64,000 bases of DNA from Arthrobacter sp. Marseille-P9274 (GTDB lineage Bacteria; Actinomycetota; Actinomycetes; Actinomycetales; Micrococcaceae). Position 1 is the stretch's first letter. Each line of letters starts with the position of its first letter. Location of the stretch: assembly GCF_946892675.1 (NCBI RefSeq), contig NZ_CAMPOV010000002.1:434001-498000 (forward strand), read 5' to 3'. The notes beneath the pieces were generated by a model. The model did not search any database and was not told the DNA's origin. It saw only the letters and a program-made list of their open reading frames with translations. Of the stretch, positions 45,725 through 59,121 are shown in pieces. A program made the translations under genes and the position numbers.

Positions 45725-46576
45725 TCAGGCCTGCCGCGCGGCTGCGGGGCGGTGTCCGGCTTTGGCGAGCTGGATCTGTTCGTAGACGTGGTGGCGTAGT
45801 TCGGTGAAGCGGGGCAGGGCGCGGGTGTTGAGCTGGTCGCGTTCGTCGGGCAGGTCGATGGTGATGTCTTCCTGGACGACGGTCGGCGAGGAGGACAGGA
45901 TGATTACGCGCTGGCCGAGGTAGACGGACTCGTCGATGTCGTGCGTGACGAACAGGACGGTCACGCCGAGCTTGCGCCAGACGGTGCGGATCAGGTCCTC
46001 GAGGTCGGCGCGGGTCTGCGCGTCGACGGCGGCGAACGGTTCGTCCATCAGCAGGACCTCGGGCTGGTAGGCCACGGCCCGGGCGATCGCGACGCGCTGC
46101 TGCATGCCGCCGGAGAGCTGCCACGGGTAGGACTGCGGCACGTGCGCCAGTCCCACGGCTTCCAGGGCGTCGTCGACCAGGCGGTCGCGTTCGGCCTTGG
46201 GCACGCCCTGGTTCTTCAGCGGCAGTTCAACGTTCTCGCGGACCCGCATCCAGGGGAACAGCGAGCGGCCGTACTCCTGGAACACCACGGCCATCTTCTT
46301 CGGCGGGCCGACGACCCTGGTGCCGTTGAGCAGCACCTCGCCCTCGGTCGGGGCCATCAGGCCGGCGATGCATTTGAGCAGCGTGGTCTTGCCGGACCCG
46401 GACGGGCCGACCAGGCAGGCCAGCTCCCCTGCGCGCAGGTCGAAGGTGAGGTTGCGGACGGCCTCGATGTCGCCGCCGTCGGTCTTGTAGACCTTTTTCA
46501 TGCCGCGGACCGAGAGCATTGCCTCGTTCGCGGGGAGGGTCTTGCCGGCCGGTGCCGGGGTTGTCTCAGACTGCAT
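45725..46576 (-). CDS. ABC transporter ATP-binding protein (SsuB/TauB type)
   Basis: 283-residue ATPase energising import. Walker A GPSGSGKTTLL, Q-loop FQEYGRSLFPWM, signature SYPWQLSGGMQQRVAIARA, Walker B LLMDEPFAAVDAQTR and switch His in FVTHDIDESVYL. An N-terminal ~25-residue tail precedes the first strand, and a basic Ala-rich tail ends it. It overlaps the upstream permease by 11 bases. Last gene of a three-gene unit without a binding protein. Confidence 0.95.
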   Translation of the reverse strand: MQSETTPAPAGKTLPANEAMLSVRGMKKVYKTDGGDIEAVRNLTFDLRAGELACLVGPSGSGKTTLLKCIAGLMAPTEGEVLLNGTRVVGPPKKMAVVFQEYGRSLFPWMRVRENVELPLKNQGVPKAERDRLVDDALEAVGLAHVPQSYPWQLSGGMQQRVAIARAVAYQPEVLLMDEPFAAVDAQTRADLEDLIRTVWRKLGVTVLFVTHDIDESVYLGQRVIILSSSPTVVQEDITIDLPDERDQLNTRALPRFTELRHHVYEQIQLAKAGHRPAAARQA

Positions 46577-47339
46577 TTTCTACCTCTCGCAGGCCGTGGT
46601 ACCAGCGCAGGATCCTGCGCTCGGTGAATTGGAAGATGAACGACATGGCCACACCGATCAGGCCCAGCACCACGATGCCGGACCACATTTCCGGAATCGC
46701 GAACGAGCGCTGGAACTGCACGATGGTGAAGCCGAGCCCCGACGAGGAGGCGAACATTTCGGAGATGACCATCAGGATCAGGCCGATGGACAGGCACTGG
46801 CGGACACCGGCCATGATCTGCGGGCCGGCGGAGGGCAGGACCAGGTACTTGATCCTCGCCCAGCCCCGGATGCCGTAGGTGTGGGCGCTGTCGGAGAGGA
46901 CCGAGTCGATCGCGCGGACGCCTTCGATGGTGTTCAGCAGCACCGGCCAGACGCAGCCGGAGATGATCACGACGACCTTCATGCCGTCCGTGATGCCCAT
47001 CAGCAGCATCAGGACCGGCACCAGCACCGGCGGCGGGATCGCCCGGAAGAACTCTAGCACCGGCTCGGTCAGGTCCCGCAGCCACTTGATCGAACCGATC
47101 AGCAGGCCCGCCACGATGCCGATGATGATCGCCGCGACCACGCCGACGAAGAGCCGGCCGAGGCTGGGCAGCACGTCCGAGACGATCCGCTCACCGAACC
47201 AGGTCTCGCCGAACTTCTCCGCCAGCACCCCGGGGGTCGGCACGAAGAAATTCGTCTCGCCGAGGGTGGAGGCCCACCAGATCATGACCAGGATGACCGG
47301 CAGCGCCAGCGCGTACCCGATCCCCTTCAGAATTTTCAT
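46566..47339 (-). CDS. ABC transporter permease (SsuC/TauC type), 2
   Basis: 257 residues with six transmembrane helices and the EAA coupling loop RGWARIKYLVLPSAGPQIMA. BPD_transp_1 family of nitrate/sulfonate/taurine-type importers. Starts four bases inside the upstream permease stop and overlaps the ATPase gene at its 3' end, so the three proteins are made together. Its partner permease differs in sequence, implying a heterodimeric channel. Confidence 0.93.
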   Translation of the reverse strand: MKILKGIGYALALPVILVMIWWASTLGETNFFVPTPGVLAEKFGETWFGERIVSDVLPSLGRLFVGVVAAIIIGIVAGLLIGSIKWLRDLTEPVLEFFRAIPPPVLVPVLMLLMGITDGMKVVVIISGCVWPVLLNTIEGVRAIDSVLSDSAHTYGIRGWARIKYLVLPSAGPQIMAGVRQCLSIGLILMVISEMFASSSGLGFTIVQFQRSFAIPEMWSGIVVLGLIGVAMSFIFQFTERRILRWYHGLREVENAV

Positions 47340-48172
47340 ACGATCACCTCGGAACGGATGGACGAGTGCCAGGACAGGGTCTTGCGCTCGATCCAGCGCA
47401 TCAGCAGGTTGATCAGCACGCCGATCAGGCCGGTCGCCAGGACCAGGGCGTACATGCCCGAGATCGCGCCGCCCGACTGAGCCAATGCGATTTCGCGGCC
47501 CAGCCCCGGCGAACCGATGACCAGTTCGGCCGTGATCGCCAGGATCAGCGCCACCGAAGCGGCCAGGCGCACGCCGGTCATCAGGTACGGCAGCGCGGTC
47601 GGGAAGACCACGTACCGGATCCGGGCCACCCGGCCCAGCCCGTAGGACTTAGCCGTGTTCATCGCCACGTTGTCCACGTCCGTCACCCCGTACAGCACCT
47701 GGATGAAGACCTGCCAGAAGGAGGCATACACGACCAGCATCAACGTGGACTCGATCTTCACACCGAACAGCAGCACCGCCAGCGGGATCAGCGCCACCGA
47801 CGGAATCGGCCGCAGGAACTCCACCGTGGAATTAGTCAGCTTCCGCAGGAACGACGACGAACCGATGATGAAGCCCAGCACCGTGGCCAGCACGATCGCG
47901 ATCACCAGGCCCAGCAGCCAGGCCAGCATCGTCTCGCCCACCGCAACCCAGAAAGCCGTCAGGCCGAAATCGCGGGCCAGGGCCCCGATCACCTCGGACG
48001 CCGGCGGCAGGAACCGCGGCTCGACAATACCGACCCTGGGCACCAACTCCCAGATCAACAGAAAGGCCAGGATGCCGGCGATGCCCAGCAACTGCTTGCT
48101 CGGCATCTTCCTCGCCGGGCGCTTCGGTGCGGCGTGCGCGGCACCGCTCTTGTTAACCGCCTGCGCCGTCAT
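47336..48172 (-). CDS. ABC transporter permease (SsuC/TauC type), 1
   Basis: 278 residues. A charged N-terminal tail (NKSGAAHAAPKRPARKMPSK) is followed by six helices and the EAA loop LGRVARIRYVVFPTALPYLM. Same family as the next gene, with moderate similarity. First gene of the unit; upstream lie two overlapping palindromes (48254-48277). The orphan binding lipoproteins at 38577-40600 are the obvious candidates to serve it (inference). Confidence 0.93.
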   Translation of the reverse strand: MTAQAVNKSGAAHAAPKRPARKMPSKQLLGIAGILAFLLIWELVPRVGIVEPRFLPPASEVIGALARDFGLTAFWVAVGETMLAWLLGLVIAIVLATVLGFIIGSSSFLRKLTNSTVEFLRPIPSVALIPLAVLLFGVKIESTLMLVVYASFWQVFIQVLYGVTDVDNVAMNTAKSYGLGRVARIRYVVFPTALPYLMTGVRLAASVALILAITAELVIGSPGLGREIALAQSGGAISGMYALVLATGLIGVLINLLMRWIERKTLSWHSSIRSEVIV

Positions 48173-48253
48173 ACCGATGCGGTCCTCGGTCGTTTCATTT
48201 CCACTCCTTCGTGCCCCCTCAGCGAGCGGGATGCCGCGTCAGTGTTCGCTTAT

Positions 48254-48277
48254 TGAACAGCTGTTCACTAGCTAGTG
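48254..48277. promoter_or_regulatory. Two overlapping perfect palindromes upstream of the ABC unit
   Basis: TGAACAGCTGTTCA (48254-48267) overlaps CACTAGCTAGTG (48266-48277). They lie about 85 bases before the first permease start, in the 380-base gap 48173-48555 that holds no other gene. The first has TetR-operator form. Confidence 0.6.
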
Positions 48278-48555
48278 TGAGATGACCCACCGAGTGGCGT
48301 CAAACACGGCGTGATGATCGTTACACACAAGATATTCCGTGACGCAGGCCGACAAATCAAGTTGAAAAACTCAATTGTTTGTGATTCCACGAAAATTCCG
48401 TCGCGCGCACGCCGGGCAGACGACCACCGCTGAGGGCCCTCTGGCACTTGCCGCAGCCGACCGGCGCAGTAGCGTTTGACTTGACGGGGTGAGTCACCGG
48501 TCCGAAGTAAATGCGGATGAACGCGCCCCCGCTCGCCGCAAGAGGGGGATCCGAC

Positions 48556-49191
48556 GTGGAAACGATGAAGATGAAGCGGGCTCTCCCCGCTGTCGCCGCT
48601 GCCCTGCTGACGCTTGCGGGCTGTGCGCCGGCGGAGCCGCCCGCCACGTCACCGGCCACGACCCGGGCCAGCGCCACTGTGGGAGCATCCTCGGACGCCC
48701 CGGAGCAAAGCCCGACCTGGACGACGCCAGTGGCGACCGGAAGCGGGCCGGTGTTGTCGCCGCCCGGCACGCAGGACAGTGCTGCACCAGCAGCGCTGAC
48801 GCTTTACTACGTGGCGGTGGACGATGCCGGCGGGTCCGGCGAAGCCATCGGCTGCGGCGACAGCCTGGTGGCGACCTATACGGAGCGCCTGAGCACTCCG
48901 GACAGAGTTCGCGAGGCGATGGAACGGTTGCTCGCCGACAAGGGGCAGTTCCTTGGAGAGTCGGGACTGTACAACGCGCTGTACCAATCCGACCTGTCCT
49001 TCGTCCGGGCAAGCACGGAGGCGGACACCGTCATGGTGGAGCTGGAGGGCCAACTGCAGTCCGGAGGAACGTGTGACGACCCTCGAATCGAACGCCAGCT
49101 GGAACAGACAGCGGCGACCGCTGCGGGCACGGGGACGTCCGTGGTCCTCGTCAACGGCGTCCCGGTCGAAGAGCTGCTAAGCGGCAAATAG
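48556..49191 (+). CDS. GerMN-domain lipoprotein
   Basis: 211 residues from GTG 48556 (GAGGGGGA about 7 bases upstream; ATG 48565 is an alternative). Lipobox LAGC (C23), then a Ser/Thr/Pro-rich tether of ~70 residues and a GerMN domain: ALTLYYVAVDDAGG, DRVREAMERLLADKGQF, SFVRASTEADTVMVEL and a C-terminal AATAAGTGTSVVLVNG. GerMN proteins act at the cell envelope (sporulation GerM, LpqB). Two cysteines (IGCGDS, GGTCDD) may bond. Function here unknown. Confidence 0.85.
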   Translation: METMKMKRALPAVAAALLTLAGCAPAEPPATSPATTRASATVGASSDAPEQSPTWTTPVATGSGPVLSPPGTQDSAAPAALTLYYVAVDDAGGSGEAIGCGDSLVATYTERLSTPDRVREAMERLLADKGQFLGESGLYNALYQSDLSFVRASTEADTVMVELEGQLQSGGTCDDPRIERQLEQTAATAAGTGTSVVLVNGVPVEELLSGK

Positions 49192-49230
49192 CGGCCGCTT
49201 TCCTGGGAGGCGATTGTTTTTGGACAGGGA

Positions 49231-49265
49231 ACTGGCCGGAACCGTTGGGGGGAGTTCCGGCCAGT
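49231..49265. terminator. Bidirectional hairpin between GerMN gene and peptide gene
   Basis: Perfect 12-bp stem ACTGGCCGGAAC/GTTCCGGCCAGT (49231-49242 with 49254-49265). No strong T tract on either strand. Confidence 0.6.
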
Positions 49266-49293
49266 GGCTTATGGGGTTATTGAGGTAGGAGGG

Positions 49294-49479
49294 TCACTGC
49301 CAGGCGTGGTCCGCCCAAGCCGCATCCCGTGAGTAGTCGCTCCCGGTCAGGTTCCACAGGTCGCCGTCCGGTCCGTGCGAGGCGAGCCCGCCCATCTCTT
49401 CGAGGGCGTCGGTGCTGGTCTGGTCAGTAGTTTCGGACGAGCGCAGGTAGACGGCGTTGGCCGACGTAAACGGGGTCAT
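49294..49479 (-). CDS. Candidate RiPP precursor peptide B (61 residues)
   Basis: 61 residues, acidic, with no cysteine and no signal peptide. An N-terminal MTPFTSANAVYL is followed by a Ser/Thr-rich segment (RSSETTDQTSTDALEEMGGL) and a Trp/Asp-rich end (DLWNLTGSDYSRDAAWADHAWQ split across 38-61). The ATG overlaps the stop of the lantibiotic-dehydratase-like gene (ATGA), so it is made together with it. Its AAW element near the C-terminus recurs in the peptide at 50543-50677. Function as a modified peptide is an inference. Confidence 0.6.
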   Translation of the reverse strand: MTPFTSANAVYLRSSETTDQTSTDALEEMGGLASHGPDGDLWNLTGSDYSRDAAWADHAWQ

Positions 49480-50447
49480 CTTCTTCTCTTCTCCAACAGA
49501 GCGGATTCAGTATCAGGCGTCCACGCGCGGGCGTAGATTCCCAAGGCTGCTTCTTCCCACATCGTGAAGCCAAGCCGATTCATCATGTAGTGCGACTGGC
49601 TGAACATAAGGTTCTGGGCGCTGCGGCTCACCCGGGACTTGTCAGCCCGGTAGAGGTAAGCATCAATTGCCCGCTTCCAGCGGCGGCGCCAGTTCTGCAC
49701 GGAGCCTTCGGCTGCTGTCGCTGCCATCAGGCGGTGCATCGGGGCCGTCCTCGGGGCAAGACTGGCAGCCAGACCGGCGCGCGCCTTTGCAGCACCGCGC
49801 CCGAGCTCCAACGTCGAGACCCTCAAATGGTTGTCCCAGCAGTAGTTCCAGGACAGCCTGCGCCGGTCCGGCCACTGGGCGGACTTCGGGCCGTTCATCA
49901 TTGCCCAGGCGGCATCCGAGAGCAACAGCGCTCCCAGGGCCGTCCGCCCCTGCGACTTGCTGAAGCGGCCAACCGCCCAGCTCGCAAGTTCAGATGAAAG
50001 CTCGAAGACCTCCTCGGCCAGAACCAGGCCATCGGCGCCGCCGAATCGGTCCAGCTCCGATTCGTGAACCATCGACACCGGCTCAGGCCCGACCAGGCCG
50101 GCCAGGTCCTCGCAGTTCGGAGGCAGTACGTAGTTCTGCTGGATCCTGGCAGTGGGCACGGCTTCAAGGAGCCGGCCCCGGGCCGCCAACTCAAACCTCT
50201 GGAGGCTATCGAGGGCTGAGCGGTGGCCCAGGAACCGGACCTTTATGTGAGGCCCCACCTCATCAACATGATGACCGAAGTACCAGCGGCCCACGCCTTC
50301 GCGGCGAGCGTGGGCCACCAGCGGCGTAACCAGTTCTCCTATGACGGTTTCGGCTACGTCCTGTCTACCCGTGTATATAGACAGGACCCACCAGTATGAT
50401 TTGAGACTGAGCGTTTCCGAGGTGCGGATGGCTGTCAGCTGGCTCAT
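49476..50447 (-). CDS. Stand-alone lantibiotic-dehydratase C-terminal-type protein
   Basis: 323 residues. The N-terminal third matches the SpaB_C / thiopeptide-type bacteriocin biosynthesis pattern: SYWWVLSIYTGRQDVAETVI, VTPLVAHARREGVGRWYFGH and DEVGPHIKVRFLGH. In split dehydratases this domain eliminates glutamate from glutamylated Ser/Thr, and in thiopeptides it builds the pyridine ring. Here there is no LanB N-terminal (glutamylation) partner, no LanC, no transporter. AAGGAG precedes the ATG. It is flanked by two short peptide genes on the same strand, overlapping one of them. The family call is by pattern recognition, without a search. Confidence 0.75.
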   Translation of the reverse strand: MSQLTAIRTSETLSLKSYWWVLSIYTGRQDVAETVIGELVTPLVAHARREGVGRWYFGHHVDEVGPHIKVRFLGHRSALDSLQRFELAARGRLLEAVPTARIQQNYVLPPNCEDLAGLVGPEPVSMVHESELDRFGGADGLVLAEEVFELSSELASWAVGRFSKSQGRTALGALLLSDAAWAMMNGPKSAQWPDRRRLSWNYCWDNHLRVSTLELGRGAAKARAGLAASLAPRTAPMHRLMAATAAEGSVQNWRRRWKRAIDAYLYRADKSRVSRSAQNLMFSQSHYMMNRLGFTMWEEAALGIYARAWTPDTESALLEKRRR

Positions 50448-50542
50448 GCGCTTCTCCTTGGTTAGCTCGCTGGTGGTTGGGGAGGAATAGCCTGGCCGTC
50501 CTGGTTACAGGATCAGCTACATGCTGGGGATGGGGCGGCTTT

Positions 50543-50677
50543 TTACCAGTCCCAGGCTGCGACCGGTGTGCTGTTGGGCTTAGGCCCTTGCTCGGCTACC
50601 ACTGCAGGAGTGGCTGCCGAGATCGCACCGAAGGCAACCAGCAGACCTGCCGTGATGCTGGCGATCCTCTTGAACAT
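50543..50677 (-). CDS. Candidate secreted precursor peptide A (44 residues)
   Basis: 44 residues: Sec-type signal MFKRIASITAGLLVAFGAIS then AATPAVVA with a likely cleavage after A28, leaving EQGPKPNSTPVAAWDW as a 16-residue product. No cysteine. AGGGG lies 7 bases before the ATG. It is upstream of the lantibiotic-dehydratase-like gene on the same strand with a 95-base gap holding a small hairpin (TCCTG/CAGGA, 50499-50512). Too short to be noticed by length filters, but signal and ribosome site are good. Confidence 0.65.
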   Translation of the reverse strand: MFKRIASITAGLLVAFGAISAATPAVVAEQGPKPNSTPVAAWDW

Positions 50678-50857
50678 GTCATTCCCCTTTTGGGTGTGAG
50701 TGGCAAACCATCGGGGAATGCCCCCCGACAACTTCAAGAGTTCCGTGTCAGCCCGGGTGGTGTCCAGCCGGAGGAGGGGCAGGAACCGGACATGCACACA
50801 TTGGGACAGGCGCCGGCGGGTGTCCGCTTGATGCCACCGGTGATTGACCCGAAAATC

Positions 50858-50873
50858 CCTTGAGATTCCAAGG
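50858..50873. promoter_or_regulatory. Inverted repeat in the divergent peptide/regulator region
   Basis: CCTTG-N6-CAAGG (50858-50862 and 50869-50873) in the 300-base gap 50678-50977, between the peptide gene and the LuxR-type regulator. Candidate regulator site. Confidence 0.4.
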
Positions 50874-50977
50874 TTTCAGCACCAAAGGTATGATTTGAAC
50901 GTGCCTACTTAAACCGATTGGCAACAACCGGACATGGCATTCACTTACCAGTCTCAAACCAGCCGAGGGGGCAGCGG

Positions 50978-51949
50978 ATGCTGAGCGGCACAGCCTTCGA
51001 ACTGTACGAACACGCCGTAGCCAATCCGGAATGGACGAAAGAGTCTGCTTCCACGGCGTTGGGCTACACGATACGTGACCTCAACGCCGCAATCGCGGAA
51101 CTAGTGAGCCGCAAGTTGCTGCAGCAGCCGGCACCGCATATCGAGGCCTTCATCGCCATCCCCCCGGACGTCGCGCTCTCCCAGCTGGTGGACGCGGACG
51201 AGCGGCTGCTGATCGACTTGCGGGCCAAGATCAGCGGACACCGCAGCGATATGGCCGCCCTGGTTCCCTCGTATCTGGCGGCGCGGAAGAACGTCGGCCT
51301 CGATTCGACGGTTGAGGTGCTGGAGGACCCCGGAGTCATCCGCAAGCTGCTGATCGACTACGGCCGCGACGTCAGCGAGCAGGTCCTGATCAGCCAGCCC
51401 GGCACGGGCTCCACCGCGGAAGTGCATGAGGAGAGCATCCAGAAGGACCTGGAACTGCTCGGCCGCGGGGTCGTGCGCAAAAACCTCTACAGCACCAGCA
51501 CGCTGGACCATGTGCCGACCCGCAAGGCCGTAGCAGCCACGGCTCCGGCCGGGCTCGAATACCGGACCCTTCCCTACGTGCCGCTGAAGGTGCTGATCTT
51601 CGACCGGAACCTGGCCCTTGTGGCCCGCCAGCTTTTCCCCGACGACCGCGGGGCGCTCGTGGTGCGCGACCCGAAGCTCATCCACGTCTTCACCCATCTG
51701 TTCAACGTGGCCTGGGAGCTCGCGACGCCCTACAACTCGGACGAGGACAGCCCCGCCGCCCAGCTGAACAGCGTCCAGCAGTCGATCCTGCGCGGCATGG
51801 CCTCGGGCCACTCCGACGAAGTGATCGCCCGCCGGCTCGACATCAGCGTCCGGACCTGCCGGCGGCACATCGCCTGGATGCTGGAGCAGCTTGGCGCCGA
51901 AAGCCGCTTCCAGGCCGCGCTCAAGGCCAAGGACGCCGGCTGGCTCTGA
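50978..51949 (+). CDS. LuxR-type regulator of the peptide locus
   Basis: 323 residues from ATG 50978 (GAGGGGG 7 bases upstream). N-terminal winged-helix/TrmB-like section (MLSGTAFELYEHAVANPEWT, STALGYTIRDLNAAIAELV), a central PLD/sensor-like region (YRTLPYVPLKVLIFDRNLAL), and a C-terminal LuxR helix-turn-helix (VQQSILRGMASGHSDEVIAR, RLDISVRTCRRHIAWMLEQL). This architecture is frequent next to natural-product and peptide gene clusters in actinobacteria. Divergent from the peptide A and modifying-protein genes. Confidence 0.85.
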   Translation: MLSGTAFELYEHAVANPEWTKESASTALGYTIRDLNAAIAELVSRKLLQQPAPHIEAFIAIPPDVALSQLVDADERLLIDLRAKISGHRSDMAALVPSYLAARKNVGLDSTVEVLEDPGVIRKLLIDYGRDVSEQVLISQPGTGSTAEVHEESIQKDLELLGRGVVRKNLYSTSTLDHVPTRKAVAATAPAGLEYRTLPYVPLKVLIFDRNLALVARQLFPDDRGALVVRDPKLIHVFTHLFNVAWELATPYNSDEDSPAAQLNSVQQSILRGMASGHSDEVIARRLDISVRTCRRHIAWMLEQLGAESRFQAALKAKDAGWL

Positions 51950-52031
51950 CCAGGACGGACCGGCCTGCCGTCAGCCCGGGAACCAACCACGCAAAGTAAA
52001 CAGGAGTTGCCCCTAAGGCAACATGGCGGGT

Positions 52032-52046
52032 TATCCTGTGTGAGTG
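52032..52046 (+). promoter_or_regulatory. Leaderless-type promoter -10 and start codon
   Basis: TATCCT (52032-52037) is followed after 6 bases by the GTG start at 52044, with no Shine-Dalgarno sequence. This is the layout of actinobacterial leaderless transcripts. Confidence 0.5.
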
Positions 52047-53354
52047 ACAGCACATCAGCCGACTGCGCCCGCCGATCTTTCCACGGAGACCGAGGTCGCT
52101 CTGGAGCGCGCCGCGACCTCCCACCGCCACCACGAGCTGTTTTCCGAGCGGGCGTCCAAGATCAAGCAGTCCGCGGTCCGTGACGTCTTCGACATCTCGC
52201 TGCGGCCGGGGCTGGTCTCGCTGGCCGGGGGCAACCCGTTCCTGCAGTCACTGCCGCTGGAAAAGATCGGCGGGATGGCCTACAAGCTCGTCACCGAACA
52301 CGGCCTCACCGCGCTGCAGTACGGCGGCGGCCAGGGCATGGAAAAGCTTCGGGAACAGATCTGCGAGGTCATGGCCGAGGAAGGCATCACCGATGCCGAC
52401 CCGGGGAACGTCGTCGTTACCGTAGGATCCCAGAGTGCGCAGGACGTCGCCTGCAAGGTGTTCTGCAACCCCGGGGACACCGTCCTGTGCGAAGATCCGA
52501 CCTACGTCGGTGCGCTTAATACCTTCGAAGCCTACGAGGTCAACGTCGAAGCCGTCGCCATGGACGACCGCGGGCTCGTTCCGGATGAGCTCCGGCGGCG
52601 CATCGCCGAGGTCCGCTCCGCCGGCGGCAACATCAAGTTCCTCTACACGATCCCCAACTTCAACAATCCCTCGGGCATCACGCTGGCGGCCGAACGGCGG
52701 GAAGAGATCGTGCGGATCTGCCAGGAATCGAACATCCTGATCATCGAGGACAACCCCTACGGGCTGCTGCGCTTCGACGGTCGGCCGATTCCGCCCCTGC
52801 GGGCGGGGCATCCGGCGGACGTGATCTACATGGGCTCGTTCTCCAAGATCCTCGCCCCGGGCCTGCGCATCGGCTGGGCGCTGGTGCCGTCCCACCTGCA
52901 GCGCCGGTTCTACCTGGCCAGCGAAGCCGTGACGCTGTGCCCGCCCACGCTGAACCAGATGCTGGTGTCGGAGTACCTCGACGGGCACGACTGGCGCGGC
53001 CAGATCACCACCTACCGCGACCTCTATGCGGAGCGCTGCCTCGCGATGCTTTCCGCGCTGAAGGAATTCATGCCGCCGGGGGTCACCTGGACGCGCCCCG
53101 AAGGCGGCTTCTTCGTCTGGGTGACGCTGCCGCCGGGAATCGACACGTACCCGCTGCTCCACCGCGCTATCGACGCCGGCGTCGTGTTCATCCCGGGAGC
53201 CGCATTCACGCCGTCGGACGAGCCGTCCAACCGGCTCAGGCTGGCCTTCAGCGCCGTGGCAGGCGACCGGATCCGCGAGGGCGTCCGCCGGCTGGCCCCG
53301 GTCATCGCCGAGGCCATCGAGGCGGGAGAGGCGCAGCTGCCTGAGGACGCCTAG
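52044..53354 (+). CDS. PLP-dependent aminotransferase (2-aminoadipate/MocR-type class I)
   Basis: 436-residue fold-type I aminotransferase of the LysN/2-aminoadipate transaminase group. Substrate-binding SLAGGNPFLQSLP, cofactor stretch VTVGSQSAQDVACKVFCNPG, IPNFNNPSGIT, DNPYGLLRF and the PLP-lysine in YMGSFSKILAPGLRIGW. The start codon GTG has no ribosome site and is probably read from a leaderless mRNA. The gene follows the LuxR regulator by 94 bases. Whether it belongs to the peptide locus is not shown. It ends in a shared CTAG with the convergent small gene. Confidence 0.92.
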   Translation: MTAHQPTAPADLSTETEVALERAATSHRHHELFSERASKIKQSAVRDVFDISLRPGLVSLAGGNPFLQSLPLEKIGGMAYKLVTEHGLTALQYGGGQGMEKLREQICEVMAEEGITDADPGNVVVTVGSQSAQDVACKVFCNPGDTVLCEDPTYVGALNTFEAYEVNVEAVAMDDRGLVPDELRRRIAEVRSAGGNIKFLYTIPNFNNPSGITLAAERREEIVRICQESNILIIEDNPYGLLRFDGRPIPPLRAGHPADVIYMGSFSKILAPGLRIGWALVPSHLQRRFYLASEAVTLCPPTLNQMLVSEYLDGHDWRGQITTYRDLYAERCLAMLSALKEFMPPGVTWTRPEGGFFVWVTLPPGIDTYPLLHRAIDAGVVFIPGAAFTPSDEPSNRLRLAFSAVAGDRIREGVRRLAPVIAEAIEAGEAQLPEDA

Positions 53355-53566
53355 CGCCGCTTCTTCAGGTACCGGTGGTACACGTACCGGCCGGCGAAGT
53401 AGAGGGCGAGCACCAGCACGATGCGCAGGATGGCGTGCATGCCCGGGAACAGCGCGATGAAGACGTAGCTGAGCAGGAAGATGAATAGCATCGCCCAAAG
53501 GGTGCCGCGCCAGTCGATGCGGGGGATGCCAGGGTCGTCGCGGCGCGTGGGGCGGTTGTTGCTCAT
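53351..53566 (-). CDS. Small two-span membrane protein
   Basis: 71 residues: a polar Arg/Asp-rich start (MSNNRPTRRDDPGIPRIDWR), two hydrophobic helices (GTLWAMLFIFLLSYVFIALF, AILRIVLVLALYFAGRYVY) and a basic end. GGGAGG lies very close to the ATG. Its stop overlaps the stop of the aminotransferase gene: the four bases CTAG give TAG on both strands. No named domain. Confidence 0.7.
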   Translation of the reverse strand: MSNNRPTRRDDPGIPRIDWRGTLWAMLFIFLLSYVFIALFPGMHAILRIVLVLALYFAGRYVYHRYLKKRR

Positions 53567-53606
53567 GCCTCCCAGTCTGTCACAGACGTGCGGTGCTTCC
53601 GGCGGC

Positions 53607-54092
53607 TCAGCGCTCCACGAGGATGCCGTCGAGGTCCGCGTAGAGCATCGCGCCGGGACGGAACTGCACGCCGGAGAATTCCACCGGCGCGTCCACTTCG
53701 CCTGCCGACTCCTTGGCACTCTTGCGGGGATTGCTGCCCAGCGCCTTGATCCCCAGCGGCAGGCCGGCCAGCACGGCACGGTCCCGGACGGCGCCGTTGA
53801 TGACGACGCCGGCCCAGCCGTTCTCCACGGCCGCCGCGGCGATCAGGTCCCCCATCAACGCGGTGTTGAGCGATCCGTCTCCGTCAACCACCAGGACACA
53901 ACCGTCGCCCGGGGAATTCAGCACGGACTTCACCAGGCCGTTGTCCTCGTGGCAGCGGATGGTGCGGACAGGCCCGCTAAAGGTCGTGTTCGCGCCAAGG
54001 TCCAGGAACTGCAGCGGGACGGACTGCAGTTCCTCGCCGCGCTCGTCGTAAAGGTCGGCAGTCTGTACAGCGGTGCCGGTCGTCTCGGTCAT
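53607..54092 (-). CDS. rraA: RraA-like protein
   Basis: 161 residues of the RraA / 4-hydroxy-4-methyl-2-oxoglutarate aldolase fold: TADLYDERGEELQSVPLQF, GDGCVLVVDGDGSLNTALMG, AAAAVENGWAGVVINGAVRD and LGIKALGSNPRKSAK. In E. coli RraA inhibits RNase E; the family also contains aldolases with a G-x20-R-D metal site, here NGAVRDR. GAGGAGG precedes ATG 54092. Which of the two roles applies is open. Confidence 0.9.
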   Translation of the reverse strand: MTETTGTAVQTADLYDERGEELQSVPLQFLDLGANTTFSGPVRTIRCHEDNGLVKSVLNSPGDGCVLVVDGDGSLNTALMGDLIAAAAVENGWAGVVINGAVRDRAVLAGLPLGIKALGSNPRKSAKESAGEVDAPVEFSGVQFRPGAMLYADLDGILVER

Positions 54093-54146
54093 CGTTCGCT
54101 CCTCCTCGCCACTGCTGTCGATCATAGCGAACGACGGTGCCGCGGC

Positions 54147-55667
54147 TTAGTCGAGCAGGAGCGCCGGCTCCTCCATGATCGAAGCCACGTCCGCCATGAA
54201 GCGCGCGGAGAGGTCCCCGTCGACCACGCGGTGGTCGAAGGAGCCGCCCAGGGTGGTGATCCAGCGGGGAATGACCTCGCCGTCGAGCACCCACGGCTTC
54301 TGCTTGATGGTGCCGAAGGCGACGATGGCCACTTCGCCCGGGTTGATGATCGGCGTGCCGGTGTCGATGCCGAGCGCGCCGATGTTGGTGATGGTCAGCG
54401 TGCCGCCCTGCATCTCCGCCGGCTGGGTCTTGCCCTCGCGGGCCCGGGTGGCCAGCTGGTTCAGCGCGATGGCCAGTTCCTTCAGCGAGAGGTCCTGGGC
54501 GTCCTTGATGTTGGGCACCATCAGGCCGCGCGGGGTGGCCGCGGCGATGCCCAGGTTCATGAAGTGCTTGACCAGGATCGCATCGTCCGTCCAGGTCGCG
54601 TTGACCGAGGGGTTGCGCGCGGCGGCCCAGATGACGGCCTTGGCCAAGATCAGCAGCGGGGAGACCTTGATCCCCTCGAAGTCCCGGCTGGCCTTGAGCC
54701 GCTTGACGAACTCCATGGTCCGCGAGGCGTCGACGTCCACGAAGATGCTCACATGCGGCGCGTTGAAGGCGGATTCGACCATCGCCTTCGCGGTGGCCTT
54801 CCGTACGCCCTTGACGGGTACGCGCTCGATCCGCTGGTCCTGCGGCTTCTTGCTCGGCGCCCAGAACGTCTCGGCCTGGTCCAGCTCGGCGTCCCGCTGG
54901 GCCTGGTAGCTGAGCAGGTCCTGCTTGGTGACTTCTCCGCCGCGGCCCGTCGGCACGATGTCCGCCAGGTCGATCCCGAGATCCTTGGCGGCCTTGCGCA
55001 CCGGCGGCTTGGCCAGCACGCGGTTCAGCAGCCGGGAGACGGCGGCCTGCGCGTCCGCCCGGCGGTGCTTCAGCCCGGCGGGCTCGGCAGAGGGCGCCGC
55101 CGGAACGGGCGGCACGTGCGGAGCGTGGTGGGCCGGGCTGGAGTCGGAGACGCCGTGATGGTGCCCGGCGGGAGCGTTGGCGAGCGAGGTATCTTCCGGG
55201 GCGCCGCTCCCCTCGGCGGCATCCGCCGTCGTCGTTATTGGAGCGGTGACCCCGGCGCTGCGGCGCGGCCGGCGCTTGACCGCATCCGCCTTCGGCCCCG
55301 AACCAACGAGCGGCTTCAGCTCCTGTTCGGGCGCCGCCGCAGGGGCCTCGCCCGGCGCGGCGGGCAGCGCCTCGGCGAGGGCGTCGCCGGCGGGCTTCTC
55401 CGGCTCGGCCTGCGCTTCGGCCCCGGCGGGCCGGACGGCGATGATCGGGGCGCCTACTTCCACGGTCTGGCCTTCCTCGGCCAGCAGTTCGGCCACGACG
55501 CCGGCATACGGGCTCGGCAGTTCCACCAGGGACTTGGCCGTTTCGATCTCCACGATCACCTCGTTGATCGCCACCGTGTCCCCGGGCTTGACCTTCCAGG
55601 ACACGATGTCCGCCTCGACGAGGCCTTCGCCGACGTCTGGCAGGTTGAAGATAAATGTGTTCGACAT
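54147..55667 (-). CDS. bkdC: Dihydrolipoamide acyltransferase (E2) of a 2-oxoacid dehydrogenase
   Basis: 506 residues. Lipoyl domain at the N-terminus with K45 ([10 protein letters not shown]), a long Ala/Pro/Glu linker that includes a His-rich segment ([20 protein letters not shown]), a peripheral-subunit-binding domain ([35 protein letters not shown]) and the catalytic acyltransferase domain with H479 and D483 (DHRVVDG). Third gene of the E1alpha-E1beta-E2 operon. The E3 dihydrolipoamide dehydrogenase is not in the operon. Branched-chain specificity is inferred from the separate E1 subunits. Confidence 0.94.
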
Positions 55668-55679
55668 GGGAACTCCGGA

Positions 55680-56654
55680 TCAGTAGGCGAGCGAACGGTC
55701 GAGGGCCTCGAGGATGCGGTCGATGTCCGGCAGGTAGTGCTCCTCGACCTTGGCCACCGGGTAAGGCATGTGGAAGCCGCCGACGCGGAGCACGGGGGCC
55801 TCCAGGCTCAGGAAGGCGCGTTCGCTGACCCGTGCGGCGATTTCCCCGCCGATGCCGCCGAAGGTCGGGGCCTCGTGCGCGACGATGAGCCGGCCGGTCT
55901 TCTGCACCGAGGCGGTGACCGTGTCGAAGTCGATCGGCGAGATGGAGCGCAGGTCGATCACTTCGACGCTGGTGCCGTCCTCCTCGGCGGCCTGCGCGGC
56001 GGCGAGTGCCACGGGCACCAGGGGGCCGTAGGCCACGGCCGTCGCGTCCGTGCCTTCGCGGAGGACGGCGGCGCGGAAAGCGTCCAGCCCGGCCCGCTCC
56101 GTGTCCACCTCGCCCTTGAGCCAGTACCGGCGCTTGGGCTCGAAGACGATGACCGGATCATTCGAGGTGACCGCCTGCTGGGTCATCCAGTACGCATCGT
56201 GGGCGTTGGAGGGCGTGATGATCCGCAGGCCGGCGGTGTGCGCGAAGAGCGCCTCCGGGGACTCCGAGTGGTGCTCGATGGACCCGATCCCTCCGCCGTA
56301 GGGAATGCGGACGACGACGGGGGCCGAGATCTGCCCGCTGGTGCGCGCGTGCATCTTGGCCAGCTGGGTGGTGATCTGGTTGAAGGCCGGGAACACGAAT
56401 CCGTCGAACTGGATCTCGCAGATGGGGCGGTAGCCGCGCATGGCAAGGCCGATGGCGGTGCCGATGATGCCGGACTCCGCGAGCGGGCTGTCGACGACGC
56501 GGTCCTTCCCGAACTCCTCCTGCAGCCCTTCCGTCACGCGGTAGACCCCACCGAGGGCGCCGATGTCCTCGCCCATCAGCAGCGTCTTCGGGTCCTCGGC
56601 CAGGGCGCGGCGCAGCCCGGCGGTAATCGCCTTGGCGATGGTCATCGTGGCCAT
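55680..56654 (-). CDS. bkdB: 2-oxoacid dehydrogenase E1 beta subunit
   Basis: 324 residues, beta subunit of the thiamine-pyrophosphate E1. MTIAKAITAGLRRALAEDPK, LMGEDIGALGGVYRVTEGLQ, VDSPLAESGIIGTAIGLAMR, and the transketolase C-terminal domain (IDLRSISPIDFDTVTASVQK) are visible. The ATG shares a base with the E1alpha stop (TAATG). Branched-chain 2-oxoacid dehydrogenase is more likely than pyruvate dehydrogenase because actinobacteria normally use a single-chain AceE for pyruvate. Confidence 0.94.
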   Translation of the reverse strand: MATMTIAKAITAGLRRALAEDPKTLLMGEDIGALGGVYRVTEGLQEEFGKDRVVDSPLAESGIIGTAIGLAMRGYRPICEIQFDGFVFPAFNQITTQLAKMHARTSGQISAPVVVRIPYGGGIGSIEHHSESPEALFAHTAGLRIITPSNAHDAYWMTQQAVTSNDPVIVFEPKRRYWLKGEVDTERAGLDAFRAAVLREGTDATAVAYGPLVPVALAAAQAAEEDGTSVEVIDLRSISPIDFDTVTASVQKTGRLIVAHEAPTFGGIGGEIAARVSERAFLSLEAPVLRVGGFHMPYPVAKVEEHYLPDIDRILEALDRSLAY

Positions 56655-57823
56655 TAGTTGCCCTCCCCCGAGCGGTCGGTGTCGGCGAAGCCCGCCTCGT
56701 ATTTCCGGTGCCAGGCCAGTTCCTCGGCGACCAGCGGATGCGGGTCCGCGTAGACCGTGTCGAAGCTCTGCTCGAACTCCGGTCCCTCCATGGCGAGCAC
56801 CTCGGCGCGGACCGCGGAGGCCATGGCCTCGCCCTCCGCTGCCACCTCGTCAAAGAACCTGTCCCCGGTGCCGGCGCCGCGCAGGTGCTGCGCCAGCCGG
56901 GCCAGCGGATCCCGCTGCCGCCAGTCCGCCTCTTCGGAGGACAGCCGGTACTTGGTGGGATCGTCCGCCGTCGTATGTGCGCTCATCCGGTAGGTAAAGG
57001 CTTCGATCAGCACCGGCCCCTTCCCGGAGCGGGCGTGCTCGAGGGCCCAGCGGGTGACGGCGTGAACCGCCACCACATCATTGCCGTCCACGCGGATGCC
57101 GGGGAAGCCGTAGCCACTGGCGCGGTTGGACAGCGGGATCCTCGACTGGACTTCGGTGGGCACCGAGATCGCCCAGTGGTTGTTCTGGCAGAAGAAAACC
57201 ACCGGGGACTGATTGGAGGCCGCGAACACCATGGATTCGTGGACATCGCCCTCGGAGCTGGCGCCGTCACCGAAATACGCGACGCTGACCGCGTCCTCCT
57301 GGTCCCGCTGGATTCCCATCGCGTAGCCGACGGCGTGCAGCGTCTGCGCAGCAAGCACCAGCGTGTAGATGTGGAAGTTCTTCTCCCGGGGGTCCCAGCC
57401 GCCGTTGGTGATGCCCCGGAACAGCTGCAGCAGGGAGGAGAGCTGCAGGCCCCGGGTGAGGGCGACGCCGTGTTCCCGGTACGTGGGGAACACGTAGTCC
57501 TGCGGCAGCAGCGCGCGGCCGGAGCCGATCTGCGCGGCCTCCTGTCCGAGCAGCGGCGGCCACAGGGCCAGCTGGCCCTGACGCTGGAGCGCAGTGGCCT
57601 CCTGGTCGAAGCGGCGGATCAGGAACATGTCCCGGTACAGCCCGCGCAGCGCCTCAGCGTCCAGGTGCTCGGCGAAGGGGCTGAAGCGCGCGTCGAACTG
57701 CAGGACGCCGTCCGCGCCCAGCAGCTGCACCATGTCCGGCGCGTCAGCGGGATCGCTGGCGGTCAGGGACTGCTCCAGTTCCGCAATCTCGAATTCCGAG
57801 GTGGGCAGGTGCTCAGCGCCCAT
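56654..57823 (-). CDS. bkdA: 2-oxoacid dehydrogenase E1 alpha subunit
   Basis: 389 residues, TPP-binding subunit of E1. YRDMFLIRRFDQEATALQRQ, GQEAAQIGSGRALLPQDYVF, and the TPP motif GDGASSEGDVHESMVFAASN with FFCQNNHWAISVPTEVQ are diagnostic. First gene of the operon. The ribosome site GAGGAG is embedded in an 18-bp perfect palindrome (57829-57846), which could hide it in a hairpin. Upstream TATAAC on the minus strand near 57872 is a plausible -10. Confidence 0.94.
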   Translation of the reverse strand: MGAEHLPTSEFEIAELEQSLTASDPADAPDMVQLLGADGVLQFDARFSPFAEHLDAEALRGLYRDMFLIRRFDQEATALQRQGQLALWPPLLGQEAAQIGSGRALLPQDYVFPTYREHGVALTRGLQLSSLLQLFRGITNGGWDPREKNFHIYTLVLAAQTLHAVGYAMGIQRDQEDAVSVAYFGDGASSEGDVHESMVFAASNQSPVVFFCQNNHWAISVPTEVQSRIPLSNRASGYGFPGIRVDGNDVVAVHAVTRWALEHARSGKGPVLIEAFTYRMSAHTTADDPTKYRLSSEEADWRQRDPLARLAQHLRGAGTGDRFFDEVAAEGEAMASAVRAEVLAMEGPEFEQSFDTVYADPHPLVAEELAWHRKYEAGFADTDRSGEGN

Positions 57824-57828
57824 ACGAA

Positions 57829-57846
57829 CTCCTCGCCGGCGAGGAG
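57829..57846 (-). promoter_or_regulatory. Palindrome enclosing the E1alpha ribosome-binding site
   Basis: CTCCTCGCCGGCGAGGAG is a perfect palindrome 5 bases before the start codon. As RNA it can fold to a 7-bp stem with a CCGG loop that occludes GAGGAG. Confidence 0.65.
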
Positions 57847-57969
57847 CTCTCCAGCCTCGCCTGTGCTGTTATATTCCCGCGAAGGAATAGATCACCCGCG
57901 GGGCATATATCGGTCGTTTTCCGCTCCCTAGCCTACTGCCACCGGGCAGCGACCCTGTTCCTATTACGA

Positions 57970-59121
57970 TCAGGAAACGCCGGGGCCCTTTGTGTAGTTC
58001 GCGCACAGCGCCAGGAACCGGGTGTTGGCCTCGACCTCGCCGACGGTGACGCGCACTCCCTCGCCCGGGAATGCGCGCACCGAGAGGGCCTGCGTCCCTG
58101 CGAACTGCGCAAAGTCCTGCGAATCCGCCCCCAGCGGCAGCCAAACGAAGTTCGCCTGGGTCTCCGGGATCTTCCAGCCAAGATCTGTCAGTCCGGCGAC
58201 GACCCGCTCCCGCTCGTCCACCAGGCTTTGCACCCTTTCCACAACCTTGTCGTAGTGCTTGAGCGAGGCGATGGCGGCGTCCTCAGCCAGGCTGGATACA
58301 GCGAACGGGGTGGCGGCGACCCGGAGGTGCTGGGTCAGGCTCTGGTTGGCCACGGAGTAGCCGACGCGCAGGTTCGCCAGCCCGTGGGCCTTGGAGAAGG
58401 TCCGCAGCACGATGAGGTTCGGGTAGTTGCGATAGAGCCGGATGCCGTCGACCGCCTCGGGGTCGCGCACGAATTCGGTGTACGCCTCGTCGATCACCAC
58501 AACGACGTCGGAGGGAACCTTCGCGAGGAAGGCCTCCACCTGGGCCGTGGTCAGCGCCGGACCGGTCGGGTTGTTCGGGGTGCACAGCAGGACGACGCGG
58601 GTCCGTTCGGTGATGGCGGCCGCCATCGCCTCCAGGTCGTGGGCGCCGTCCGCCCGGTTGGGCACCTGCACGCTTTCCGCGCCGGCCAGTCCCACCATGA
58701 TGGGGTAGGCCTCGAAGGACCGCCACGCGTAGACAACCTCGTCCGCGGTGCCGTCCGGATTCCGCCCGGCGAAGGTCTGCAGGATCTGCACCAGCGCACC
58801 CAGGCTGCCGGCACCCGTGACGATATCCTCCGCCGGCACGTCCAGGAAGCGGCCCAGTTCGGTGCGCAGCGCGGTGCTCAACGGGTCCGGGTAACGCTGG
58901 ATGTTGTGCTGGGAGTTGATCGCGGCCAGCACCTCCGGCAGCGGCGGCAGCGGGTTCTCGTTGGACGAGAGCTTGTAGGGCTGGAGCCCCTCGATCACGG
59001 CGGGCGGCTTCCCTGCGGCATACTTGGGCAGCTGGGCAACCACGGGGCGGGGAGCGACGGCGGCGGCGCGGGGATCTTCCTGGACCGCAGCGTCATCGGT
59101 GAAGTTCCTTGCAGAAGTCAT
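57970..59121 (-). CDS. HisC-type aminotransferase (histidinol-phosphate/aromatic)
   Basis: 383-residue PLP aminotransferase of the HisC/Pat group. KLSSNENPLPPLPEVLAAI, VVLLCTPNNPTGPALT, DEAYTEFVRD and the PLP-lysine in LRTFSKAHGLANLRVGYSV. Without other his genes nearby, aromatic amino acid aminotransferase (Pat, as in mycobacteria and Corynebacterium) is as likely as histidinol-phosphate aminotransferase. It lies 146 bases upstream of the bkd operon on the same strand. Divergent from a small membrane-protein gene. Confidence 0.9.
   Translation of the reverse strand: MTSARNFTDDAAVQEDPRAAAVAPRPVVAQLPKYAAGKPPAVIEGLQPYKLSSNENPLPPLPEVLAAINSQHNIQRYPDPLSTALRTELGRFLDVPAEDIVTGAGSLGALVQILQTFAGRNPDGTADEVVYAWRSFEAYPIMVGLAGAESVQVPNRADGAHDLEAMAAAITERTRVVLLCTPNNPTGPALTTAQVEAFLAKVPSDVVVVIDEAYTEFVRDPEAVDGIRLYRNYPNLIVLRTFSKAHGLANLRVGYSVANQSLTQHLRVAATPFAVSSLAEDAAIASLKHYDKVVERVQSLVDERERVVAGLTDLGWKIPETQANFVWLPLGADSQDFAQFAGTQALSVRAFPGEGVRVTVGEVEANTRFLALCANYTKGPGVS

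Follow-up and report, generated by a model that had tools for sequence, protein, structure and literature searches.

The elimination domain PF14028 is shared by the class I lanthipeptide dehydratases NisB, MibB and MadB, and a stand-alone fold of this type is also found in the thiopeptide pyridine synthases TbtD and TsrL. In a study on NisB (PMC4341554), residue H961 is essential, R786 and R826 are shown beside it, and the R784A variant is slightly impaired, no more. Extra PF14028 proteins in class I lanthipeptide clusters are suspected of a non-elimination reaction, according to PMC7268733. Here we describe a locus of Arthrobacter sp. Marseille-P9274, located in a 64,000-nt stretch of contig NZ_CAMPOV010000002.1 (positions 434,001 to 498,000; referred to as the window), in which a stand-alone PF14028 homologue is encoded between a gene for a short peptide ending in W-D-W and a gene for a 61-residue protein, opposite a LuxR-type regulator gene. 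This four-gene module is real and occurs in multiple genera, and it probably represents an undescribed system of peptide signaling or peptide modification.

The enzyme has the same domain as NisB, MibB and MadB, and the histidine is usually kept in the peptide-linked members described here. In contrast to class I lanthipeptide systems, neither the glutamylation domain PF04738 nor a LanC cyclase was detected by genome-wide profile searches, which bears out a preliminary description of the locus, made from the letters alone, that had reported both partners as missing. PF04738 gave no match in the genome of Marseille-P9274, in a search in which no positive control responded and which a very divergent copy could escape; across 120 genomes of the family Micrococcaceae, the domain was found in two (G005 and G022), and this genome was again negative. 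The LanC profile PF05147 gave no match in the genome either, while its control responded in Deinobacterium chartae. Moreover, the window's mature peptide contains no Cys, no Ser or Thr is constant beside its W-x-W motif (the preceding residue is mostly A, S, V, N or I), and the equivalent of R786 is lost in one of the genera that carry the module (g31). Compared with the TbtD and TsrL systems, the locus has no Ser/Cys-rich precursor, as read directly, and a scan of 14 window proteins (45725 to 59121) revealed neither azole nor dehydratase genes. The stand-alone proteins of PMC7268733 adjoin a full LanB in clusters with LanC, neither of which was detected here, where a WDW peptide is the precursor. 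As for the pathway of peptide aminoacyl-tRNA ligases (PEARLs), no PF04738-like ligase was found, and PEARLs do not co-occur with PF14028 according to PMC11212132. Because the searches for partner and cyclase and the examination of the core residues were all negative, the locus should not be classed among lanthipeptide or thiopeptide systems. Two other kinds of system are alike in layout. RRNPP pairs combine a small secreted-type propeptide with a cytosolic transcription regulator; in contrast, the regulator here is of the LuxR/GerE type without the tetratricopeptide repeat match expected of an RRNPP receptor, an enzyme and a tail protein are added, and one genus lacks the signal sequence. Biarylitide-type minimal precursors are open reading frames (ORFs) of 5 codons and thus resemble the shortest ORFs here (7 codons) as possible leaderless precursors of ribosomally synthesized and post-translationally modified peptides (RiPPs), but their enzyme is a cytochrome P450 and not a PF14028-type protein.

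To follow the module we searched a family sample of 395 genomes from 32 genera with the enzyme and with the regulator, as well as order and phylum samples of 396 genomes each. The enzyme was present in 87 of the family genomes, belonging to 10 genera. Peptides of the W-x-W type accompany it in seven of them, namely the window's own genus, g5, g13, g25, g31, g32 and g8 (YDW in the last); g6 and g22 have an enzyme homologue in another setting, and g12 gave a weak match. Close homologues outside the family were rejected, since the matches beyond it were weak: 15 order genomes matched, 6 of them outside the family with E values no better than 1.9e-9, and 3 phylum genomes matched, including Marseille-P9274 (the other two at 4.5e-12 and 1.1e-5). 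Regulator orthologues of at least 146 bits occurred in 84 of the 395 family genomes, all within the 87 that carry the enzyme, and in none of the 308 others, where there were many weak matches (best, 76.9 bits). The enzyme-bearing genomes without a strong regulator orthologue are G005, G313 and G252. Among the listed enzyme matches, we fetched the non-paralogue places except those of G252, G313 and G327, and a selection of the paralogue places in g32, which yielded 32 enzymes. Duplicate loci (17) were dropped before counting W-x-W motifs and tail proteins and cataloguing the peptides; for the active-site counts, 18 duplicates and enzymes shorter than 250 aa were dropped. L114, in which the enzyme start was not located, is missing from the active-site and tail-protein counts, and L049, which is cut by a contig end, lies outside the 79 enzymes of the active-site count.

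We scored an in-frame W-x-W upstream of the enzyme and no more than 12 residues from the stop codon. Such a motif was present in 76 of the 79 enzyme loci linked to the regulator, and it read W[D/E/G]W in 75 of those 76. The three exceptions were L102, where WDW lies farther from the stop, L046, which has YDWP, and L047, a split-LanB cluster. Conversely, only one of the 32 paralogue loci had a W-x-W, far from the usual position. In random 550-nt windows of the same DNA, a correctly placed W-x-W was found in about 425 of 20,000, a figure slightly undercounted since only the first match per window was scored. Recurrence, this random rate and the nonsynonymous-to-synonymous ratios (pN/pS) given below led us to reject the idea that the small frames are chance ORFs.

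The catalogue of 81 peptides revealed an unusual range of forms. W[DEG]W occurs once in 50 peptides, twice in 23, three times in 5, and four and six times in one peptide each, with L049 having WAW. In the window's genus, a Sec-type leader is followed by a single terminal WDW; the window's peptide is single-copy in its genome, and its signal sequence reaches 2.29 in a 12-residue hydrophobic window. The g31 peptides consist of a leader and one to three S/N-W-D/E-W-P-K units (e.g., ASWDWPK), and AGVWDWPQQ units are present in two g25 loci, four in one and six in the other. In g32 the ORFs are leaderless, for example MKSWDWF (7 residues), MTSKVWDWL and MKKVTAPVSIKSWEWF. Across the main groups, the motif lies 0 to 6 residues before the stop. 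Three loci depart from these patterns. L043 of g31 keeps three units in the absence of a leader. L102 (G284) encodes GSWDWPKSQPQAGSPVVPG, in which the second repeat appears frameshifted. The ORF upstream of the enzyme in L049 (G067) encodes MTASAARRIWAWPESWPILGRK, with W-A-W-P in place of WDW and no leader.

The preliminary description had proposed a secreted peptide. By a hydrophobicity rule alone, 51 of the 81 peptides have a signal-like stretch and 30, down to ORFs of 7 residues, do not, so that secretion is not general. It had also called both small frames cysteine-free, which holds in the window but not in relatives: Cys is present in two signal sequences, and the motif LGC occurs in 64 of 78 homologues of the 61-residue protein. 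On the other hand, its expectation that both frames are conserved under codon constraint was confirmed in related loci. Across ten loci of the window's genus, the pN/pS of the peptide was 0.29 in the signal (first 30 codons), 0.81 in the linker and 0.26 in the last four codons. In g31 (38 loci), 71 of the 72 in-place W-x-W motifs read [S/N]W[D/E]WPK, and third codon positions vary within the units (GAC/GAT, four Pro codons, AAG/AAA), as seen with a pattern search that fixed the other codon positions. Since the residues are nearly invariant and the third positions vary, the peptide itself, and not its Trp codons alone, appears to be under selection.

The features of the locus are listed below. 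All four frames assigned in the preliminary description, including the opposed LuxR-type gene and the ATGA overlap between the start codon of the 61-residue frame and the stop codon of the enzyme, were recovered in the sequence.

Features of the WDW peptide locus in the window (positions are those of the 64,000-nt stretch)
Feature	Position	Strand	Basis or remark
61-aa small protein, third operon gene	49294..49479	-	ORF list
Conserved C-terminal 13 residues of the 61-aa protein, YSRDAAWADHAWQ	49297..49335	-	Sequence; tail comparison
Stand-alone LanB elimination-domain homologue, 323 aa	49476..50447	-	PF14028/TIGR03891
Spacer of 95 nt, peptide stop to enzyme start	50448..50542	-	With inverted repeat TCCTGTAACCAGGA at 50499-50512
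Precursor peptide of 44 aa, MFKRIASITAGLLVAFGAISAATPAVVA-EQGPKPNSTPVAAWDW, ending AAWDW	50543..50677	-	Read in ORF list and sequence
WDW motif codons, immediately before the stop	50546..50554	-	Identical across the genus (ten loci)
Predicted Sec signal sequence, 28 residues, AXA-type end VVA	50594..50677	-	Cleavage site by eye
Divergent LuxR/GerE-type regulator gene	50978..51949	+	PF00196 match

A homologue of the 61-residue protein, here called the tail protein, lies directly downstream of the enzyme in 78 peptide loci, compared with none of the 32 paralogues. All 78 end in RDxxWAxxxW, and 74 of them in RDAAWAxxxW. It was not found in L046, L047, L048 or L049 (contig ends), or in L102. The AAW that had been put forward as an element common to both small frames therefore dissolves into two separate motifs, W-x-W in the upstream peptide and RD(AA)WAxxxW in the tail protein. 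In the ten loci of the window's genus, the last 30 codons are more constrained than the remainder (pN/pS of 0.17 versus 0.64). To the eye, and without a family match, the first half looks like a small helix-turn-helix in most genera, and it seems decayed, with the tail retained, in the window's genus and in L053, L105, L109 and L111. No Pfam or NCBIfam family matched the protein above its cut-off. Weak matches of the small proteins to DUF2613 (below cut-off), a toxin B-subunit family (E of 0.043) and GPS-CTERM (E of 0.11) were dropped as chance.

The regulator is divergent from the enzyme in 78 of the 79 linked loci, with 298 to 738 nt between the two starts; the exception is L047, where both genes share a strand and the regulator is the downstream one. 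In the window the regulator's reading frame extends back to a TTG at 50918, and six named relatives share the start at the ATG, position 50978. The PF00196 match scored 35.3 bits. The N-terminal part is winged-helix-like, with a weak similarity to TrmB that stays below the cut-off. In the g32 genomes G080, G146, G299, G305 and G327, the regulator lies about 9 to 12 kb from the enzyme. In L027, L028, L030 and L079 (G305, G146, G080 and G299, respectively), about 9 kb separates it from the peptide and enzyme genes, and these four additional loci still carry W-x-W peptides of the WDW kind. G327 likewise has a distant regulator; its enzyme was matched in two pieces.

The assignment of the 323-residue protein to the SpaB_C/TIGR03891 type, as a stand-alone protein, was upheld by profile searches. 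It matched PF14028 with 86.3 bits over residues 19-303 (cut-off, 24.4) and TIGR03891 with 53 bits (cut-off, 48.45), and it is the sole PF14028 match in its genome. Its nearest named relatives are in Arthrobacter mangrovi (99%) and A. crystallopoietes (93%). Membership in another family was rejected, as both the profiles and Foldseek point to PF14028. A structure model built with seven close sequences as input had a predicted local distance difference test (pLDDT) score of 53.6, and Foldseek aligned this low-confidence model over more than 300 columns to MibB, TsrL, MadB, TbtD and NisB with TM-scores of 0.1 to 0.3. TbtD and TsrL (5wa4 and 7cww) were among the best hits for the model, at E values of 5.8e-4 and 1.1e-4, respectively, and TM-scores of about 0.25. 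The regulator model, from the same number of close sequences, was similarly of low confidence (pLDDT of 52.2), and we thus treat the fold results as supporting evidence only. Against PDB sequences, phmmer with the enzyme gave no match, and the enzyme profile gave no more than a partial match to MibB.

We inferred the active-site positions from the NisB residue numbers in PMC4341554 and from motif spacing. By this mapping, the putative equivalents of R784/R786, R826 and H961 are K69/R71, R134 and H286. The position of H961 was His in 77 of the 79 peptide-linked enzymes, compared with 7 of the 32 peptide-less paralogues. The latter, from g32 (L117-L136, L040-L042, L050-L052, L054, L073 and L075), have no linked regulator, no tail protein and no properly placed W-x-W, and 25 of the 32 lack the histidine. 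Up to five enzyme copies per g32 genome occur among the matches listed. In a midpoint-rooted enzyme tree with a weakly supported backbone, 25 of 26 paralogue rows fell into two groups, with L136 apart; the histidine and peptide counts are consequently not independent cases.

A possible origin of the module came from G005 and G022, in which a PF04738 gene is immediately followed by a homologue (36% identical), within a RiPP-like cluster; G022 also carries the same kind of regulator. Because of this arrangement, the WDW module looks like a split-LanB RiPP cluster that was stripped to the elimination-domain protein and the regulator and given a new peptide. The two are probably related, the module being reduced from such a cluster, and the change would have run from the split-LanB cluster to the WDW module. 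These clusters (L047 and L048) combine nitroreductase-like genes with an M50-type protein and small ORFs rich in Ser, Thr and Cys; the content of L047 was determined by a gene scan, and L048 shares it by BLAST clustering. L047 has two nitroreductase-like genes, one of them below the cut-off. The split-LanB RiPP-like clusters were noted at L047:3065-3690 and L048:3423-4084, and their Ser/Thr/Cys-rich ORFs are in tandem. A search for a plasmid origin gave no match in the plasmid collection.

How might these parts work together? We consider it quite possible, though short of probable, that these genes form a small module for a peptide signal and that the enzyme works on W-x-W by a chemistry other than the canonical one. 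The WDW peptide would be the product. Where a Sec leader exists, the peptide would be exported and the leader cut, releasing the W-D-W end or the repeats. The elimination-domain protein would recognize W-x-W in the cytosol and alter it by means of the retained histidine. Glutamate elimination is not proposed, as no glutamylating partner was found and the peptide has no constant Ser/Thr. The LuxR/TrmB-like protein could be a sensor, of the completed peptide or of the enzyme's state, that controls the operon, and the RD(AA)WAxxxW protein could serve as an accessory whose Trp-containing tail binds the peptide's site or presents the peptide. It is chiefly the missing partner and the sequence of the peptide that speak against glutamate elimination; together with the residue pattern of g31, whose 37 enzymes all have H, S or N at the R786 position, they make another role likely. 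Judged from the sequences, an undescribed modification or a repurposed enzyme, as suggested in the preliminary description, remains the best reading. We found no description of a WDW system in the literature searched, which did not extend to bioRxiv preprints. The letters AAWDW matched one paper, on an oomycete.

Several observations weigh against a modified and secreted W-x-W signal. Modification, secretion and sensing are steps that we infer. The peptides without a signal-like stretch comprise all 28 catalogued from g32, together with L043 and L049, so export is not a universal route. The middle residue of the motif varies (D, E, G or A), and the first Trp is Tyr in L046. A g31 enzyme scored 30.7 bits on TIGR03891, under the cut-off, and both g5 enzymes have Gln in place of the histidine. 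Of the 37 g31 enzymes, 27 retain Arg at the R784 position, and the R826 position is frequently Lys, likewise in both split-LanB homologues. In the window's enzyme, R71, R134 and H286 are present, with Lys (K69) at the R784 equivalent; the residues alone therefore do not exclude canonical glutamate elimination. The association between histidine and peptide is carried by few clades on a tree with a weak backbone, and models at the pLDDT values given above provide no trusted structural basis for the active-site positions.

In a more far-reaching form, which we regard as doubtful, the peptides would make up a new ribosomal class. The LanB elimination fold would have departed from aminoacyl-tRNA-dependent dehydration and would modify Trp-x-Trp in a multi-genus actinobacterial signaling circuit, whose sensor would be of the LuxR/TrmB type and whose accessory protein would have a Trp-containing tail; its precursors would include, at one extreme, six tandem cores preceded by a Sec leader and, at the other, a 7-residue gene with no leader. 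The question matters beyond this locus. Stand-alone elimination-domain proteins match an NCBI model for thiopeptide-type bacteriocin biosynthesis, and here the enzyme is inherited, in at least seven genera, together with a peptide unlike lanthipeptide or thiopeptide precursors. If the enzyme acts on W-x-W, a familiar fold would be carrying out a new reaction, on substrates of as few as 7 residues that would be well suited to in vitro tests. If the module is a signal, it would open peptide communication in Micrococcaceae to genetic study at a defined locus.

Alternatively, the PF14028 protein could be a non-catalytic receptor for the WDW peptide, with the RD(AA)WAxxxW tail competing for its pocket and the intracellular level of peptide setting whether the LuxR regulator is active. 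We consider this rather unlikely. The histidine kept in nearly all peptide-linked enzymes is one that a pure binder would not need. The loss of that histidine in g5 and the absence of Arg at the R786 position in g31 would fit a receptor, as would the stronger constraint on the tail half of the 61-residue protein. An intracellular role is possible in view of the 30 peptides that lack a signal-like stretch. Peptide and tail both have W..D..W-like ends, a likeness that is short and could be chance.

That the locus makes an antimicrobial or effector RiPP for secretion, from precursors that each hold several cores, with the LuxR protein as a local switch only, seems improbable to us. The recurrent neighbours scanned encode metabolic enzymes and regulators; none is a transporter or peptidase gene or resembles an immunity gene, and the core is almost invariant across genera, as the cores of bacteriocins usually are not. 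One genus, g32, moreover lacks an export signal in its catalogued peptides. Such a role would nevertheless suit the tandem cores and the kinship with split-LanB RiPP-like clusters.

Finally, we analyzed the spacer between peptide and enzyme. The distance from the peptide ORF stop to the enzyme start was 66 to 149 nt in the 76 W-x-W loci. GTAACCA is common to many spacers of other genera (loci L013-L116). The spacers contain a variable hairpin, and a conserved hairpin-like element, CCCGCCCCAGCGGGGGTAACCA, is present in g31, g32 and g25; no Rfam family matched, with one of the searches covering 14 loci. Compared with shuffled sequences, the 24 spacers of g31 and g25 had a mean z of -2.09 over the first 60 nt (13 of 24 below -2) and -1.56 over the whole spacer. 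The corresponding values were -0.67 and -0.83 for 17 g32 spacers and -1.04 and -0.26 for 5 spacers of the window's genus. The GTAACCA-bearing hairpin or palindrome could be an operator or an RNA switch. Arrest leaders of the SecM/TnaC type are short ORFs upstream of a gene, some with a signal sequence, and the short ORF here could likewise be a regulatory leader for translation of the enzyme, by such an arrest or as a Trp attenuator, its peptide having no later function. The distance to the enzyme start, the richness in Trp codons, the many g32 ORFs of just 7 to 11 residues and the folding in g31 and g25, on account of which we retain this explanation as a slim chance, speak for it. Against it are up to six regular tandem repeats constrained at the amino acid level with conserved D/E, P and K, the varying distance to the stop, and, in the window's genus, a constrained signal sequence and little-structured spacers.

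The flanks of the module were examined at 13 loci. The gene at 48511-49191 was within reach in three of them and directly adjacent in two, G024 and G050, where the module is missing and this gene adjoins the aminotransferase gene (52044-53354); both are flanks of the module in the window. As the flanking genes are adjacent where the module is missing, it behaves as a cassette at that site. In several genera, genes corresponding to 54147-59121, which encode 2-oxoacid dehydrogenase components E1a, E1b and E2 and a second aminotransferase, adjoin the module. Of 16 genomes selected because they lack the module, 13 have the first aminotransferase, and these genes thus look like neighbours of the site and not parts of the module.

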